From Phenylobacterium sp. (GTDB taxonomy: Bacteria > Pseudomonadota > Alphaproteobacteria > Caulobacterales > Caulobacteraceae): a stretch of 64,000 nucleotides of DNA. A program made the position numbers and the translations under genes. Under the pieces are notes generated by a model. The model worked only from the letters and a program-made list of their open reading frames with translations, was not told where the DNA came from and ran no database searches. The DNA lies in contig NZ_JAUSLG010000038.1 of the NCBI RefSeq assembly GCF_030646615.1, forward strand, positions 62,001 through 126,000, written 5' to 3'. This document shows positions 52,151-57,493 of the stretch, one piece after another; the stretch's first letter is position 1, and every line of letters begins with the position of its first letter.

Positions 52151-53140
52151 CTAGTCTTCAAGGAGGGCCTGGAAGGCTGGCGAGAGCCGCTCTTCCAGGC
52201 CCTTTTTCGTGTGGATGAGGAAGCGGGCGGGGATGTCGTGGGCCGCGCAGAGCGCCAGGCCCTCGTCCGCCCCCGCCACCGACAGCAGGGTGCACCAGGC
52301 GTCGGCGACCATGGCCTGGGGGTGCAGCACGCTGACGCAGCCTACGCCGCTCTCGCTGGGCCGGCCGGTGCGGGGATCGAGGGTATGGGCGAGGCGCCGG
52401 CCCTCATGGATCATATAGCGGCGGTAGTCGCCCGAGGTGGCCACTGACAGGCCGCACAGGGCCAGCAGGATCGGCGTCTGGCTTTCGACCTCGCCCTCCA
52501 GCCGCTCCAGGGCCACCCACCAGGGCTGGCCGTCGGGCTTGAGCCCCTCGCCGCGCAACTCGCCGCCGACCTCCAGCAGGAAGTCACGCACCCCAAGACG
52601 CAGGAGCGCGCGGGCCGCCTCATCGACCCCGAACCCCTTGGCGACGCCTGACAGGTCCAGGCTAAGGCCCCCCGGCTGGCGCAGCCGGCGACCGACGGGA
52701 TCGAAGTCGAGTCGCGCCCAGCCGGCCCCAGCCAGGGCGTCGGCGACCATCTCGTCCGTCGGCGGCGTGGCCACCGGTCCCGGCGGCCCGAATCCCCAGA
52801 GATCCGTCAGGCGCCCGACCGTGGGGTCGAAGGCCCCCCGGCCCAGGGCCGCCATCCCCAGGGCGCAGGCCATCACCTGGGCGAAGCCTTGGGGCAGGTC
52901 CTGCCAGGCGCCGGCCGGGGCGCGGTTGAAGGCGCTGATATGGGAGGCCGGCTCCCAGGTGCTCATCTCCGCGACCACACGGTCCAGGCGGTCCTGGACC
53001 GTGCGGGCCAGGACCTGGGCGCCAAGGCCCGGCAGGGTGATCGCCCGGAGCGTCCAGGTCACGCCCATGGCGACGCCGGAGGCTTCCACCTCCAGCCCGC
53101 CGGCCTGGGGCGCCAGATCCTCAGGCAGGGTCAGGGGCAC
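52151..53140 (-). CDS. apbE: FAD:protein FMN transferase (ApbE)
   Basis: ApbE splits FAD and attaches FMN through a phosphoester bond to Thr/Ser of extracytoplasmic proteins. VEASGVAMGVTWTL at the N-terminus, EMSTWEPASHISAFNRA, then GLSLDLSGVAKGFGVDEAARALLRLGVRDFLLEVGGELRG and HTLDPRTGRPS and VLHPQAMVADAWCTLLSVAG are standard. The start is uncertain: GTG 53140 (329 residues), GTG 53170 or TTG 53194 (6 bases after the upstream gene). It is the last gene of the TonB-receptor operon, whose DUF2271 protein carries a fitting acceptor motif. No classical signal peptide is seen in the chosen start. Confidence 0.9.
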   Translation of the reverse strand: MPLTLPEDLAPQAGGLEVEASGVAMGVTWTLRAITLPGLGAQVLARTVQDRLDRVVAEMSTWEPASHISAFNRAPAGAWQDLPQGFAQVMACALGMAALGRGAFDPTVGRLTDLWGFGPPGPVATPPTDEMVADALAGAGWARLDFDPVGRRLRQPGGLSLDLSGVAKGFGVDEAARALLRLGVRDFLLEVGGELRGEGLKPDGQPWWVALERLEGEVESQTPILLALCGLSVATSGDYRRYMIHEGRRLAHTLDPRTGRPSESGVGCVSVLHPQAMVADAWCTLLSVAGADEGLALCAAHDIPARFLIHTKKGLEERLSPAFQALLED

Positions 53141-53199
53141 GGCGACCCGGTGTTCAGGGCCGGCGCGCACCGATGAGGGAGCCTGGGAAGCCAACCGGC

Positions 53200-54018
53200 C
53201 TATTCCGGCAGGACTTCCAGGGTGCCGACATAGACCGCCATGCGCTCGGCGCCCTCGATCGGGCTCTTGCCGCCCCGCACCTCGGCCTCCATCCAGTACA
53301 TGCCCGGCTCCGCCCAATTGATCTCCAGCAGGCCGTCGGCGGCGGTGGTGAGCTTCATCTCGCCCGGATCGTCGCGATAGCGGCCGGCGCCGCGGATTAC
53401 GGTGACCTCGACGCCCGGAGCCGGCTGACCGTCGAGCAGCAGGCGGAACTGCGCCGTCTCGCCAGCGAACAGGTCGTTGGGATGGGTGACCGGGGCCAGC
53501 TCCAGGCCCTTGCCGGTCGGCGCCAGGGCCTCGGTGGTGGGCTCGCCCACGGTGGCGAAGGTTTCGATACGGCGCTGGGAGTGGGTGATCTTGATGTCGG
53601 TGGCCTCGGCCGGGATGGCGGTGGGCAGATCAGCGGCCGCCCCGCGCCAGCGCTTCTGCTCGCCGGCCAGCTTGTAGGAGGCCATGACGCCATCGCCGAC
53701 GCTGGCGATGCGATAGGTGCCGGGCTTGGAAAGCTGGACATCGAAGGTCGAGCGATACTTGCCGGTCGCCGCATTCTGGTGGGGCACAGCGGCACCGTCA
53801 GGGCCGGTGATGACCAGGCCGTCCAGGCGCATGGGCACATGCTCGAAGACGAACAGGTCGTTGGACACCGCCGCATCGACGGTCACCCAGGGATCGGTCC
53901 CCGACAGCACGGTCATGGAGGGCAGCATCCACTGCCGGTGGGCCTGGGCGGCCATGGGGGCGGCCAGCATGGCGGTGAGCGCCGCAGCGGCGCAAAGAGG
54001 GCGAAGCAGGGTCTTCAT
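53200..54018 (-). CDS. DUF4198 periplasmic protein with predicted N-terminal His
   Basis: This 272-residue exported protein has a signal (MKTLLRPLCAAAALTAMLAAPMAAQA) followed by HRQWMLPSMTVLSG, so signal cleavage after AQA would leave a His at the mature N-terminus. DUF4198 proteins are beta-sandwich, related to nickel/cobalt-transport accessory proteins. Later segments include YRSTFDVQLSKPGTYRIASVGDG and LRADGLLEINWAEPGMYWMEAEVRGG-like strands. It is 34 bases from the DUF2271 gene and just upstream of apbE. The job in the system may be metal or ligand binding; this is inferred. Confidence 0.85.
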   Translation of the reverse strand: MKTLLRPLCAAAALTAMLAAPMAAQAHRQWMLPSMTVLSGTDPWVTVDAAVSNDLFVFEHVPMRLDGLVITGPDGAAVPHQNAATGKYRSTFDVQLSKPGTYRIASVGDGVMASYKLAGEQKRWRGAAADLPTAIPAEATDIKITHSQRRIETFATVGEPTTEALAPTGKGLELAPVTHPNDLFAGETAQFRLLLDGQPAPGVEVTVIRGAGRYRDDPGEMKLTTAADGLLEINWAEPGMYWMEAEVRGGKSPIEGAERMAVYVGTLEVLPE

Positions 54019-54052
54019 GGCGCGTCTCTCCGGAATTCTGTTGAAAGGGGGA

Positions 54053-54568
54053 TCAGGGCTTGAGGCTGAGGCTGACGACGCCGAGCTCGGTCTCGCCCTT
54101 GGCCTGGCCGCTGGCGGCGGCCTGGGGCGGCCACTGGAAGGGGATGCGGACCATTTCGCGGCCGCCGACCTCGCGGGCGGCTTCCACCACCAGATTGTAC
54201 TGGCCGGCCGGAAGCGTGCCGAGCGGCGCCTTGCCGCCGACGAACTTTACCTGATGACGGCCCGGCGCCTTGGTGGCGCCGCTGACGCCGTCGGCCGGCA
54301 GGGTCATGGCCCGCCCCGCCCGGCGCCACCACTGGCGCATGTCCTTCAGCCAGGTCTCGCCTTCGCTGTTCCTGAGCTTGATGTCGTACCAGACCGCCAG
54401 GGTCTTCACCGCGCTCTGGTCCGGCTTCTCGACCCAGATGGCCACATAGGGATTGTGGTACTCGGCCACCGACATGCGCGGGATTTCCACACTGAGGTTC
54501 AGCTCGGCGGCGGCGGCCGGGGCGGCCATCAGACCGGTAAGAACGGCGGCGGAGGCAAGTCGGCGCAT
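54053..54568 (-). CDS. DUF2271 protein with ApbE-type flavinylation motif
   Basis: This 171-residue secreted protein has a signal (MRRLASAAVLTGLMAAPAAAA) and a beta-rich body (YHNPYVAIWVEKPDQSAVKTLAVWYD). At residues 93-99 (54272-54292) it reads DGVSGAT, matching the DxxSGAT-type acceptor recognised by ApbE, so Thr99 is the predicted FMN site. DUF2271 proteins have been reported as ApbE substrates in extracytoplasmic electron-transfer systems. It starts 14 bases after the PepSY gene and is followed by DUF4198 and apbE. ATG 54568 is well placed; the ORF track adds an upstream tail. Confidence 0.88.
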   Translation of the reverse strand: MRRLASAAVLTGLMAAPAAAAELNLSVEIPRMSVAEYHNPYVAIWVEKPDQSAVKTLAVWYDIKLRNSEGETWLKDMRQWWRRAGRAMTLPADGVSGATKAPGRHQVKFVGGKAPLGTLPAGQYNLVVEAAREVGGREMVRIPFQWPPQAAASGQAKGETELGVVSLSLKP

Positions 54569-54582
54569 GGGCGAAGATCCGT

Positions 54583-55269
54583 TCAGTGAATGAAGAGCAG
54601 GGCGAGCAGCAGGGGAATGATCAGGCCCGCCCCCACCAGGGGCCAGGTGGAGCGGCGGGCGTGAGAGTGCAGTTGCAGCAGGATCAGGCCGGTGACGCAG
54701 AAGACCACGCACCCGACGGCGAAGATGTCGAGGAACCACATCCAGGCCACCCCGGTGTTGCGGCCCTTGTGCAGATCATTGAGGTAGGCGACCACGCCGC
54801 GATCGGTGCGCTCATAGATGACCTCGCCCACCTCCGTGTCGAGGCTCAGCCAGGCGTCGCCGCCAGGCCGCGGCAGGGCGAGATAGGCCTCGCCCGCCGA
54901 CCATTCCGGCGCAGCGTCGGCCGGCAGGCTCACCTTCAATTGGTCGCCGATCCAGGCGCGTACGGGCTCGGGCAGAGGAGCCTCCTGCGCCTCCGCAGCC
55001 TGCGCCAGGGCCAGGAGATCGGCCGGCAGCTCGGCCGTCCGCTCGCTCACCCGCGGCGTGGCCGGGATGGAGCCCGCATGGTTGAGCGTAATGCCCGTGA
55101 TGGCGAACAGCAGCATGCCGATCAGGCAGATGGCCGCGCTGATCCAGTGCCAGCGCAGGGTCTGGCGCAGGAAGCCAGCTCTCCGTTGCGCCTGACGCTT
55201 GGCCCGGGCGCGCGCCTCGGCGGCGTCAGGGGCCGCTGAGGCTGCGCCTAGCCGTTCAGAAGTCGACAT
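54583..55269 (-). CDS. PepSY-associated transmembrane protein
   Basis: This 228-residue inner-membrane protein has a cytoplasmic basic N-terminus, a first helix near residues 40-60 (RWHWISAAICLIGMLLFAITGITL), a periplasmic PepSY-like domain (AWLSLDTEVGEVIYERTDRGVVAYLNDLHKGRNTG) and C-terminal helices (FLDIFAVGCVVFCVTGLILLQL). His residues at HW, NH, LH and HSH lie at helix ends and could bind haem b. The protein overlaps the TonB receptor by 14 bases and leads directly to the flavinylated DUF2271 gene. It likely passes electrons from the cytoplasmic side to the periplasm. Confidence 0.88.
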   Translation of the reverse strand: MSTSERLGAASAAPDAAEARARAKRQAQRRAGFLRQTLRWHWISAAICLIGMLLFAITGITLNHAGSIPATPRVSERTAELPADLLALAQAAEAQEAPLPEPVRAWIGDQLKVSLPADAAPEWSAGEAYLALPRPGGDAWLSLDTEVGEVIYERTDRGVVAYLNDLHKGRNTGVAWMWFLDIFAVGCVVFCVTGLILLQLHSHARRSTWPLVGAGLIIPLLLALLFIH

Positions 55270-57409
55270 TCACCGAAACCCACAGCCGCCGCGGCTCCTG
55301 GTTGATGGCGTACTCGCCCGCATAGGCCGTGGTCGCGCCGTTCGCATAGGGCAGATAAGACACGAAGTCCTTGTCGAACAGGTTGTAGATGGTGGCGTTC
55401 ACCCGGACATTTTCCGCCACCTGGTAGCTGCCGCCCAGATGGAAGAGGCTGTAGCCCTTGTAGTCGCCCAGGGCGTCCTGAGCGGCGCCGGCGCCACGAT
55501 AGCGCTCGGAGCGCACCTCGGTCCGCACCCAGGCGTTCAGCTTGTCCGTGGCGCGCCAACGGACGCTGCCGTTCAGCATGTGCTCGGGCGTATTCACCAG
55601 GGGCTCGCCCGCCGAGGGGCCGCTTTTCTGCTCGCTGTCGGTGTAGGTGTAGTTGCCCGAGACCGTCCAATCGGGGCTGAAGGCGTAGCGGGCCGCTACC
55701 TCGGCCCCGCGGGTCACCGCCTCGTCGATGTTCACCGTCTGGCCATAGAGATCGACCCGGGGGAAGGCGCCATAGTCCACGCAACCGGGGCGATTGGGGC
55801 TGCCGGCGAAGGAACAGTTGGGCAGGCCGGGGCCTGAGGCGATCTTGTCCTCGAACTCGCTGTTGAACAGGGTCAGGTTGGCGTCAAAGCCGGCGCCATT
55901 GTCGAAATAGACCCCGACCTCGGCGGTCGTGCTGGTTTCCGGCTGCAGGGTCGGCGTGCCGATGGTCGGCACTGTGCCCTGGGCGGTGAAGCCCGTGATG
56001 CCCGAGGCGATCTGGTCCAGGCGCGGGGTCTTGAAGCCGCGGCTGACCCCGCCCTTCACCGTCCAGGCGTCGTTAGCCGTCCAGACCAGATAGGCCCGGG
56101 GGCTGGTCTGGCCGCCGAACTTGGAATGGTCGTCGTGCCGGACGCCGACCGTGAGGGCGAGATTGTCCAGCAGGCGCCATTCGTCCTCGGCGAACACCGC
56201 CCATTGGGTGTGCTCATAGGTGTCGACGGCCACCCCATCGACCATCTCGGCCTCCCACCACTGGCCGCCCACGGTGAAGGCGTGCGCCCCCATCTCCGTG
56301 GCCAGACGGGTGTTGAAGATGGTGTTGGTGGCCTCCAGCGTGCGCGGGTCGCCGGCGGTCTTGCCGGGCGTGCCCGGCGGGATGGTCCGCCCGATCGTCG
56401 TGGTGGTGTTGCGCACCACGTCCGAGGTGATCAGGCCGATGGGCGAGCGCCAGTCATGGGCCAGGCCGTATTGCTCGCGCTCGAAGCGCAGCTCGGGACC
56501 GTAGCCCCCCTGGACCGTGCCGGTGCCGAGCTGGCTGTCGGAATTGTCATAGGATTGTTCGGCCACATCGACATCCAGCCACAGGTCGTGGTCGGCGGCG
56601 GGCGTGAAGCTCAGCCGGCCGCCCAGGGTCCAGATGTCGGCCTCCACCGGGCTGGGCCCGCGCTTGGACACCTCGACCGGCTGGCCGTTGGCGTCCACAT
56701 AGGCGAGATCGGAGGCGTCGCGCTTGAAGAGGCTGCCGCGCAGCGCCAGGCCCAGCAGGTCCGGGATGATCGGGCCATCGACATAGGCCTCGGCGCCATA
56801 GCTGGCGCCGAACTGGTCATCGCTCTGCAAGGTCCCCTGCACGGTCGTCGCCGCCCGCCAGCGGTCGCCGACCCGGCGGGTGATGATGTTGACCACGCCG
56901 CCCATGGCGTCGGAGCCATAGAGGGTCGACATCGGCCCGCGGACCACCTCGATCCGCTCGATGGCCGAGGTGGGCGGCATGAAGCTGGTGGAGGTTTCGC
57001 CAAAGCCATTGGGCGTCACATTGCCCGCCGCGTTCTGACGGCGGCCGTCGATCAGCACCAGGGTATAGTCGCTGGGCATGCCGCGGATCGAGATGTTCAG
57101 GCCGCCGGTCTTGCCGACGCCATCGCCCACATCGACGCCTTCGACGTCCGCCAGGGCCTCGGCGAGGCTCGAGAATCGCTTGGTCTGCAGGGCTTCGCGG
57201 GTGATCACGCTGACCGATGCGGGCGCCTCGACCAGCTTGCGTTCGAAGGCCGAGGCGGTGACCACCAGCTGCTCGACTTCGGCGGCGTCATTGGCGGAGT
57301 CCAGCGCGCTGGGGGCCTGGGCGACAGCGGCGCTCCCGGCGGCGATCCCGAGGCTGACGACGGAGCAAAAGAGACTGCGGCGAAGGCCACTGCGACGGAA
57401 ACCGGACAT
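55256..57409 (-). CDS. TonB-dependent outer-membrane receptor (siderophore type)
   Basis: This 717-residue receptor has a signal (GFRRSGLRRSLFCSVVSLGIAAGSAAVAQ), a probable TonB box (VEQLVVTASAF), a plug domain (SVITREALQTKRFSSLAEALADVEGVDVG, SIRGMPSDYTLVLIDGRRQN) and a beta barrel ending in Phe (RLWVSVNVDF). The plug resembles the catecholate/colicin-I receptor group (CirA/FepA). The start at 57409 is preferred to 57472. A candidate Fur site is about 70 bases upstream. It begins the operon that also encodes PepSY, DUF2271, DUF4198 and ApbE proteins. The exact ligand is unknown. Confidence 0.92.
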   Translation of the reverse strand: MSGFRRSGLRRSLFCSVVSLGIAAGSAAVAQAPSALDSANDAAEVEQLVVTASAFERKLVEAPASVSVITREALQTKRFSSLAEALADVEGVDVGDGVGKTGGLNISIRGMPSDYTLVLIDGRRQNAAGNVTPNGFGETSTSFMPPTSAIERIEVVRGPMSTLYGSDAMGGVVNIITRRVGDRWRAATTVQGTLQSDDQFGASYGAEAYVDGPIIPDLLGLALRGSLFKRDASDLAYVDANGQPVEVSKRGPSPVEADIWTLGGRLSFTPAADHDLWLDVDVAEQSYDNSDSQLGTGTVQGGYGPELRFEREQYGLAHDWRSPIGLITSDVVRNTTTTIGRTIPPGTPGKTAGDPRTLEATNTIFNTRLATEMGAHAFTVGGQWWEAEMVDGVAVDTYEHTQWAVFAEDEWRLLDNLALTVGVRHDDHSKFGGQTSPRAYLVWTANDAWTVKGGVSRGFKTPRLDQIASGITGFTAQGTVPTIGTPTLQPETSTTAEVGVYFDNGAGFDANLTLFNSEFEDKIASGPGLPNCSFAGSPNRPGCVDYGAFPRVDLYGQTVNIDEAVTRGAEVAARYAFSPDWTVSGNYTYTDSEQKSGPSAGEPLVNTPEHMLNGSVRWRATDKLNAWVRTEVRSERYRGAGAAQDALGDYKGYSLFHLGGSYQVAENVRVNATIYNLFDKDFVSYLPYANGATTAYAGEYAINQEPRRLWVSVNVDF

Positions 57410-57477
57410 AAACGAGACGACCCTACTGACTTGCGACTGGCTCGCACTAGCAAGGCCTTTCCGAGGCCACAAGTTTT

Positions 57478-57493
57478 TTGCGATTAATTCTCA
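57478..57493. promoter_or_regulatory. candidate Fur box upstream of the TonB receptor operon
   Basis: TTGCGATTAATTCTCA (plus strand) reads TGAGAATTAATCGCAA on the receptor's strand, similar to the TTGCGAATCATTCTCA-like sites described for alphaproteobacterial Fur. It lies about 70 bases ahead of the receptor ATG, in a gap otherwise GC-rich. This would explain iron control of the operon. Inferred from sequence only. Confidence 0.5.

Follow-up and report, generated by a model that had tools for sequence, protein, structure and literature searches.

We analyzed a five-gene operon, predicted to serve iron uptake, in a 64,000-nucleotide stretch of Phenylobacterium sp. DNA, which we call the window (contig NZ_JAUSLG010000038.1 of assembly GCF_030646615.1, positions 62,001 to 126,000). 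The operon lies on the minus strand (57409-52151), and its genes overlap or are at most 34 bases apart. The first gene (55256 to 57409) encodes a TonB-dependent receptor of 717 amino acids, with Pfam matches to the TonB plug (E 3e-28) and barrel (E 6e-57). It overlaps by 14 bases the gene for a PepSY_TM_like_2 membrane protein (54583 to 55269; 228 amino acids; PF16357, E 4e-78, with a weaker match to PF03929), which has three predicted membrane helices. After a gap of 14 bases follows a secreted DUF2271 protein of 171 amino acids (54053 to 54568; PF10029, E 4e-51), the predicted acceptor of flavin mononucleotide (FMN). A further 34 bases separate it from a secreted DUF4198 protein of 272 amino acids, a predicted metal-binding beta-sandwich (53200 to 54018; PF10670, E 7e-60). 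The last gene, 5 bases downstream, starts with TTG and encodes a 347-residue ApbE, a flavin adenine dinucleotide (FAD):protein FMN transferase (52151 to 53194; PF02424, E 3e-71). An initial annotation, made from the sequence alone, had described five packed genes on one strand with a 14-base overlap. All five are present at that place, and Pfam confirmed their domains.

A gene-order search, as the initial annotation had proposed, showed that nearly all of the roughly 70 loci from Alphaproteobacteria have the core order PepSY-DUF2271-DUF4198-ApbE, and that this order recurs outside that class. Therefore, the arrangement is far beyond chance. Two distant relatives (L057 and L058) have the order DUF4198-ApbE-DUF2271-PepSY. 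The genes on either side of the operon are unrelated to it: a lytic transglycosylase gene lies upstream on the opposite strand, and a convergent short-chain dehydrogenase gene lies downstream. The genome of the window (G000) comprises 3.85 Mb in 105 contigs, and the genomes closely related to it are metagenome assemblies of Phenylobacterium.

Two Fur-like boxes precede the receptor gene on the minus strand. Box 1, TGAGAATTAATCGCA (57479 to 57493), has two mismatches to the palindrome TGCGAATNATTCGCA. A second palindrome, TGCGAGCCAGTCGCA (57432 to 57446), lies 37 bases 5' of the receptor start and is conserved in the Phenylobacterium clade. The promoter thus carries the predicted Fur box that a member of the Fur regulon should have. 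Allowing up to two mismatches, TGCGAATNATTCGCA occurs at 8 places in the genome, and the reversed pattern used as a control at none. One of the 8 places is directly upstream of a receptor-plus-hydroxylase pair that, by sequence and layout, we take for the homologue of cciT-cciO, which are Fur targets in Caulobacter (PMC3751524). Since the palindrome was drawn up from these very sites together with what is generally known of Fur boxes, the test that carries weight is the independent one on 67 related upstream regions. A Fur-like site with at most three mismatches was present in 48 of them, compared with 0.44 in shuffled sequences; this contrast does not give a probability, because the regions are interrelated and the shuffle preserves base composition alone. 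The boxes vary in sequence between genera, and the palindrome is kept. We infer that Fur represses the operon when iron is plentiful. The homologous operon of Caulobacter (CC3059-3063) is repressed by Fur, which bound it in an electrophoretic mobility shift assay (PMC3751524), and it is needed for fitness in the presence of ethylenediaminetetraacetic acid (PMC12004947). The earlier proposal that the operon is iron regulated is consistent with both the conserved boxes and the published repression. Elsewhere in the genome, two Fur-like palindromes 38 bases apart (L115:6935-6989; G000 C8:12934-12988) precede a small open reading frame (L115:7034-7285). Its 83-amino-acid product resembles a one-helix membrane protein and is possibly an undescribed iron-regulated small protein.

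DUF2271 and ApbE appear to be a dedicated pair. The genome encodes exactly one of each and no FMN_bind protein, so that other ApbE substrates of the FMN_bind type are lacking. Because each is the sole member of its family there and FMN_bind is absent, DUF2271 is probably the one acceptor of this ApbE; an acceptor of an undescribed family is possible. Covalent flavinylation has been shown for a DUF2271 homologue (PMC8238504). Across the 66 operons of this type, the DUF2271 motif DGVSGATKAPG (54260 to 54292, minus strand) is retained; two of them depart from it at a single position. The motif conforms to the [ST]GA[ST]-type ApbE motif by which PepSY-like flavinylation systems are recognized, and Thr99 within it, the predicted FMN site, is conserved. 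ApbE aligns with solved FMN transferases (e.g., 5mgy) over the whole catalytic T-fold domain and contains the catalytic stretches SGDYR and HTLDPRTG, the latter matching the H-x-x-DP-x-TG motif. These motifs bear out the initial annotation, which had named a DUF2271 protein with an ApbE acceptor motif and the FMN transferase itself.

In the textbook account, ApbE is a periplasmic enzyme. The ApbE of the window begins MASQAPSSVRAGPEHRVAVPLTLPEDL, which resembles neither a signal peptide nor a lipobox. For about 60 related operons of the Alphaproteobacteria, no choice of start codon gives ApbE a signal peptide; most of them share R-V-x-(V/I)-P near the start instead. Most ApbE loci from other classes likewise lack a signal peptide. 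Hydropathy alone flags 4 of 61 ApbE N termini, three of them within the R-V-x-P stretch. DUF2271 has a hydrophobic N terminus that ends in AxA, a Sec-type signal as judged by hydropathy and alignment rather than by SignalP. Twin-arginine (Tat) export of DUF2271 would account for loading ahead of export, but we rejected it, as the RR-x-phi-phi motif occurs in 0 of 72 sequences and any RR in only 11. Compared with the DUF4198 signal of the same operon, the DUF2271 signal is less hydrophobic in 63 of 66 cases (p 3e-12, for operons that are related to one another), as is expected if DUF2271 is exported post-translationally.

The simplest reading is that FMN is loaded before export. DUF2271 would be flavinylated in the cytosol by the signal-less ApbE and then exported by Sec, with no need for flavin export. 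We give this order of events an even chance. It would reverse the compartments of the textbook account, put covalent flavin on envelope proteins without a flavin exporter, and require the Sec channel to pass an FMN-bearing chain. The chemistry of cytosolic loading is feasible: when both are without signals, DUF2271 and ApbE react in the Escherichia coli cytosol (PMC8238504). It is possible but doubtful that ApbE is periplasmic after all, reaching its place by signal-independent export or release, in which case flavinylation would be conventional. Nearly all characterized bacterial ApbE proteins are indeed periplasmic lipoproteins (PMC12052999), and in the related arrangement of L057 and L058 ApbE has a clear signal peptide and is secreted. 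However, the roughly 60 related operons have no signal peptide before the catalytic domain and conserve the R-V-x-(V/I)-P stretch in its place. A review of ApbE names cytosolic forms for soluble fumarate reductases only (PMC12052999). Our literature search, in open-access full texts, gave no report of an ApbE that lacks a signal while its acceptor is exported; it gave only the Klebsiella and kinetoplastid cases of that review. An ApbE tree, built to see whether the signal-less forms make up one clade, had too little support for use.

The PepSY protein is modeled with three membrane helices and one small periplasmic domain. Three histidines (His41, His64, and His167) do not vary even among distant relatives, and two more (His201 and His228) are mostly conserved; some relatives have Tyr or Met in place of His201. 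Judging by the model and the positively charged N terminus, His64 and His167 would be at the outer face of the membrane and His41 and His201 at the inner face. These histidines would fit haem carriage as in FoxB, whose type has conserved histidines near both faces for two haems. The small size of the periplasmic domain would make sense if the flavin protein, and not PepSY, meets the substrate. A FoxB-type fold was considered for the PepSY protein and rejected, as the fold search gave no significant match; a sequence search of the PDB gave no matches either. The protein also lacks the second PepSY domain and the fourth helix that mark the FoxB type. Elsewhere, G000 encodes five full-length PepSY_TM proteins (L130-L134 and L034-L038; contigs C61, C92, C36, C99, and C1), and at least three of these have a receptor-like gene next to them or close by. 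This genome may house several ferrisiderophore reductase systems.

The relatives offer a clue to the direction of electron flow. In many of them (L045-L056, L075, L107, and L135-L142), the operon has a further gene behind ApbE, which encodes a membrane-anchored diflavin reductase with flavodoxin and nicotinamide adenine dinucleotide (NAD)-binding domains; this points to electrons moving from the cytosol to the periplasm. A search with positive controls detected no homologue of this reductase in G000, G059, G006, G039, or G098. It was found in G088 and in other genera; four of the five other Phenylobacterium genomes lack it. Since the window's genome has no homologue, the donor here would not be the diflavin reductase of the relatives. 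Our guess is that quinol or an unlinked reductase takes its place.

The DUF4198 protein has the signal peptide junction AQA^HRQW, so its first mature residue is His27 (codon at 53938 to 53940, minus strand). All 66 operons of this type encode His as residue 1 of the mature protein. His60 (mature residue 34) and His179 are nearly invariant and are candidate second ligands. The structural model has a predicted local distance difference test (pLDDT) score of 90. Foldseek matched it to metal-bound Zcp, with Cu, Zn, or Co (E 1e-14), and to the Ni-bound DUF4198 structure 9gcb (E 2.4e-8; template modeling scores 0.52/0.63). The N-terminal His predicted in the initial annotation therefore holds throughout these 66 operons, and a metal site of this kind has been in print since October 2025 (PMC12537917). 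Next to a ferric reductase, DUF4198 may act as an Fe(II) acceptor. A second, partial DUF4198 match, to the C-terminal part and barely above the cut-off, lies away from the operon (L033/L116; G000 C9:29593-29790).

The nearest solved relative of the receptor is Cir (2hdf), which suggests a catecholate ligand; the enterobactin receptors are also near. Against the CirA model the receptor scored 360 bits and did not reach the curated cut-off of 745. Within the family, the receptor-first arrangement is restricted to one Phenylobacterium clade (the window, L040, L060, L061, and L064-L066). The best relatives of the receptor belong to other classes, and none was found in the same-genus or same-family genomes sampled. 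Five of its eight best matches, counting the window, adjoin or lie near a PepSY-DUF2271 core. In other classes the homologue is directly upstream of the core in G140 and G410, divergent from it in G416, and nearby in G311. With its best relatives outside the class and five of eight matches accompanying the core, the receptor was probably acquired by this operon, and this receptor type has been paired with the core more than once. In L062, whose DUF4198 is 93% identical, what adjoins the same promoter is just the final bases of the receptor gene, and the core is kept. The receptor gene was apparently deleted there; L062 is, like L063 and L067, a metagenome assembly, so a misassembly is possible. 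L063 and L067 have no trace of the receptor, which is compatible with loss or with its never having been gained.

Taken as a whole, the locus is likely to be an operon that serves reductive iron uptake during iron starvation, by way of PepSY and a flavin protein. In this scenario, Fur would repress the operon at high iron, acting through the conserved boxes. Under iron starvation the receptor would import a ferric chelate, probably of the catecholate type. Haem held by the paired histidines of PepSY would carry electrons across the inner membrane to FMN on Thr99 of DUF2271, and this would reduce periplasmic Fe(III) to Fe(II). DUF4198 may then bind Fe(II) or another divalent metal at its N-terminal-His site and hand it to an inner-membrane transporter; this is the weakest step. 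ApbE would load the FMN, probably in the cytosol, before Sec exports DUF2271.

Four observations weigh against this explanation. The PepSY model has no significant fold match in the PDB, FoxB included, at an E-value cut-off of 0.001. We identified no electron donor in the window's genome. The one characterized DUF4198 prefers Ni, with an affinity of 18 nM, and not iron (PMC12537917). Most relatives have an otherwise identical core but no receptor, which is therefore no obligate partner. The path from PepSY haem to FMN proposed in the initial annotation is consistent with our findings and with published homologues, but it finds no FoxB-like structural match for PepSY. That interpretation was mostly right; it missed the dispensable receptor, the absent reductase, the solved DUF4198 site, and the signal-less ApbE.

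The Ni-binding DUF4198 raises the question of whether the same redox chain takes up another metal, copper or nickel, much as the CrtA/CrpH copper operons do. Those operons, too, are defined by a TonB receptor gene followed by a PepSY_TM gene (PMC12914433 and PMC13038864), and the fold matches of DUF4198 include Cu- and Zn-bound Zcp. However, Fur-like boxes lie upstream in most relatives, the receptor is closest to Cir and the enterobactin receptors, the Caulobacter homologue is under Fur (PMC3751524), and the copper operon of Bordetella has no Fur site (PMC12914433). We consider uptake of another metal improbable. Another reading is that the core of four genes serves as a reductase in respiration or detoxification, with the receptor a chance neighbour on a shared promoter. 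This would suit the many relatives with a receptor-free core and the apparent loss in L062, but it is unlikely given the receptor homologues beside or near the core in other classes and the single iron-type promoter in front of the whole unit.

Reductive iron uptake, the explanation we prefer, places the operon in a type of system that is widespread and tied to iron nutrition. Its clade offers natural comparisons that can be tested in culturable relatives: the same promoter precedes operons that have a receptor and operons that lack one, and the cytosolic reductase is likewise present in some and absent from others. The closest published description is that of the PepSY-like flavinylation clusters, for which Meheust et al. 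proposed a role in iron reduction in 2021 (PMC8238504). The window shares with them PepSY (PF16357/PF03929), DUF2271 with an ApbE motif, DUF4198, and ApbE, and TonB receptors occur in 231 of the 3220 clusters. It differs in that its PepSY is not fused to an NAD-binding domain and lacks an adjacent diflavin reductase. The searches in that study were based on predicted export signals, and its text does not discuss signal-less cluster ApbE proteins. Caulobacter crescentus CC3059-3063 (CCNA_03155-03159) has the same core genes. There, a flavoprotein reductase comes last and the operon has no receptor, whereas in the window a receptor comes first and there is no reductase (PMC3751524).

FoxB and HiuB share with the window's PepSY the PepSY_TM superfamily, conserved membrane histidines, and a partner TonB receptor (PMC12424826). 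However, they are larger, with two PepSY domains, at least four helices, and a large siderophore cavity (PMC13038864), whereas the PepSY of the window has three helices, one small periplasmic domain, and a flavin protein as partner. The Ni-binding DUF4198 of Ideonella sakaiensis (9gcb) and Zcp (9mhi-9mho) have the same overall fold by Foldseek and the same mature N-terminal His. Identity to them is 16 to 17%, the operon here is of an iron type, and His60 and His179 are the candidates for the counterpart of His18 in 9gcb. The ApbE of Klebsiella pneumoniae also lacks a signal peptide (PMC12052999), but it modifies a cytosolic fumarate reductase, whereas the acceptor in the window carries an export signal. 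The kind of system, its link to iron, and the N-terminal His are thus already in print. What the window adds is a good new example, one that has a receptor and whose donor is missing, and the unremarked question of where the flavin is attached.

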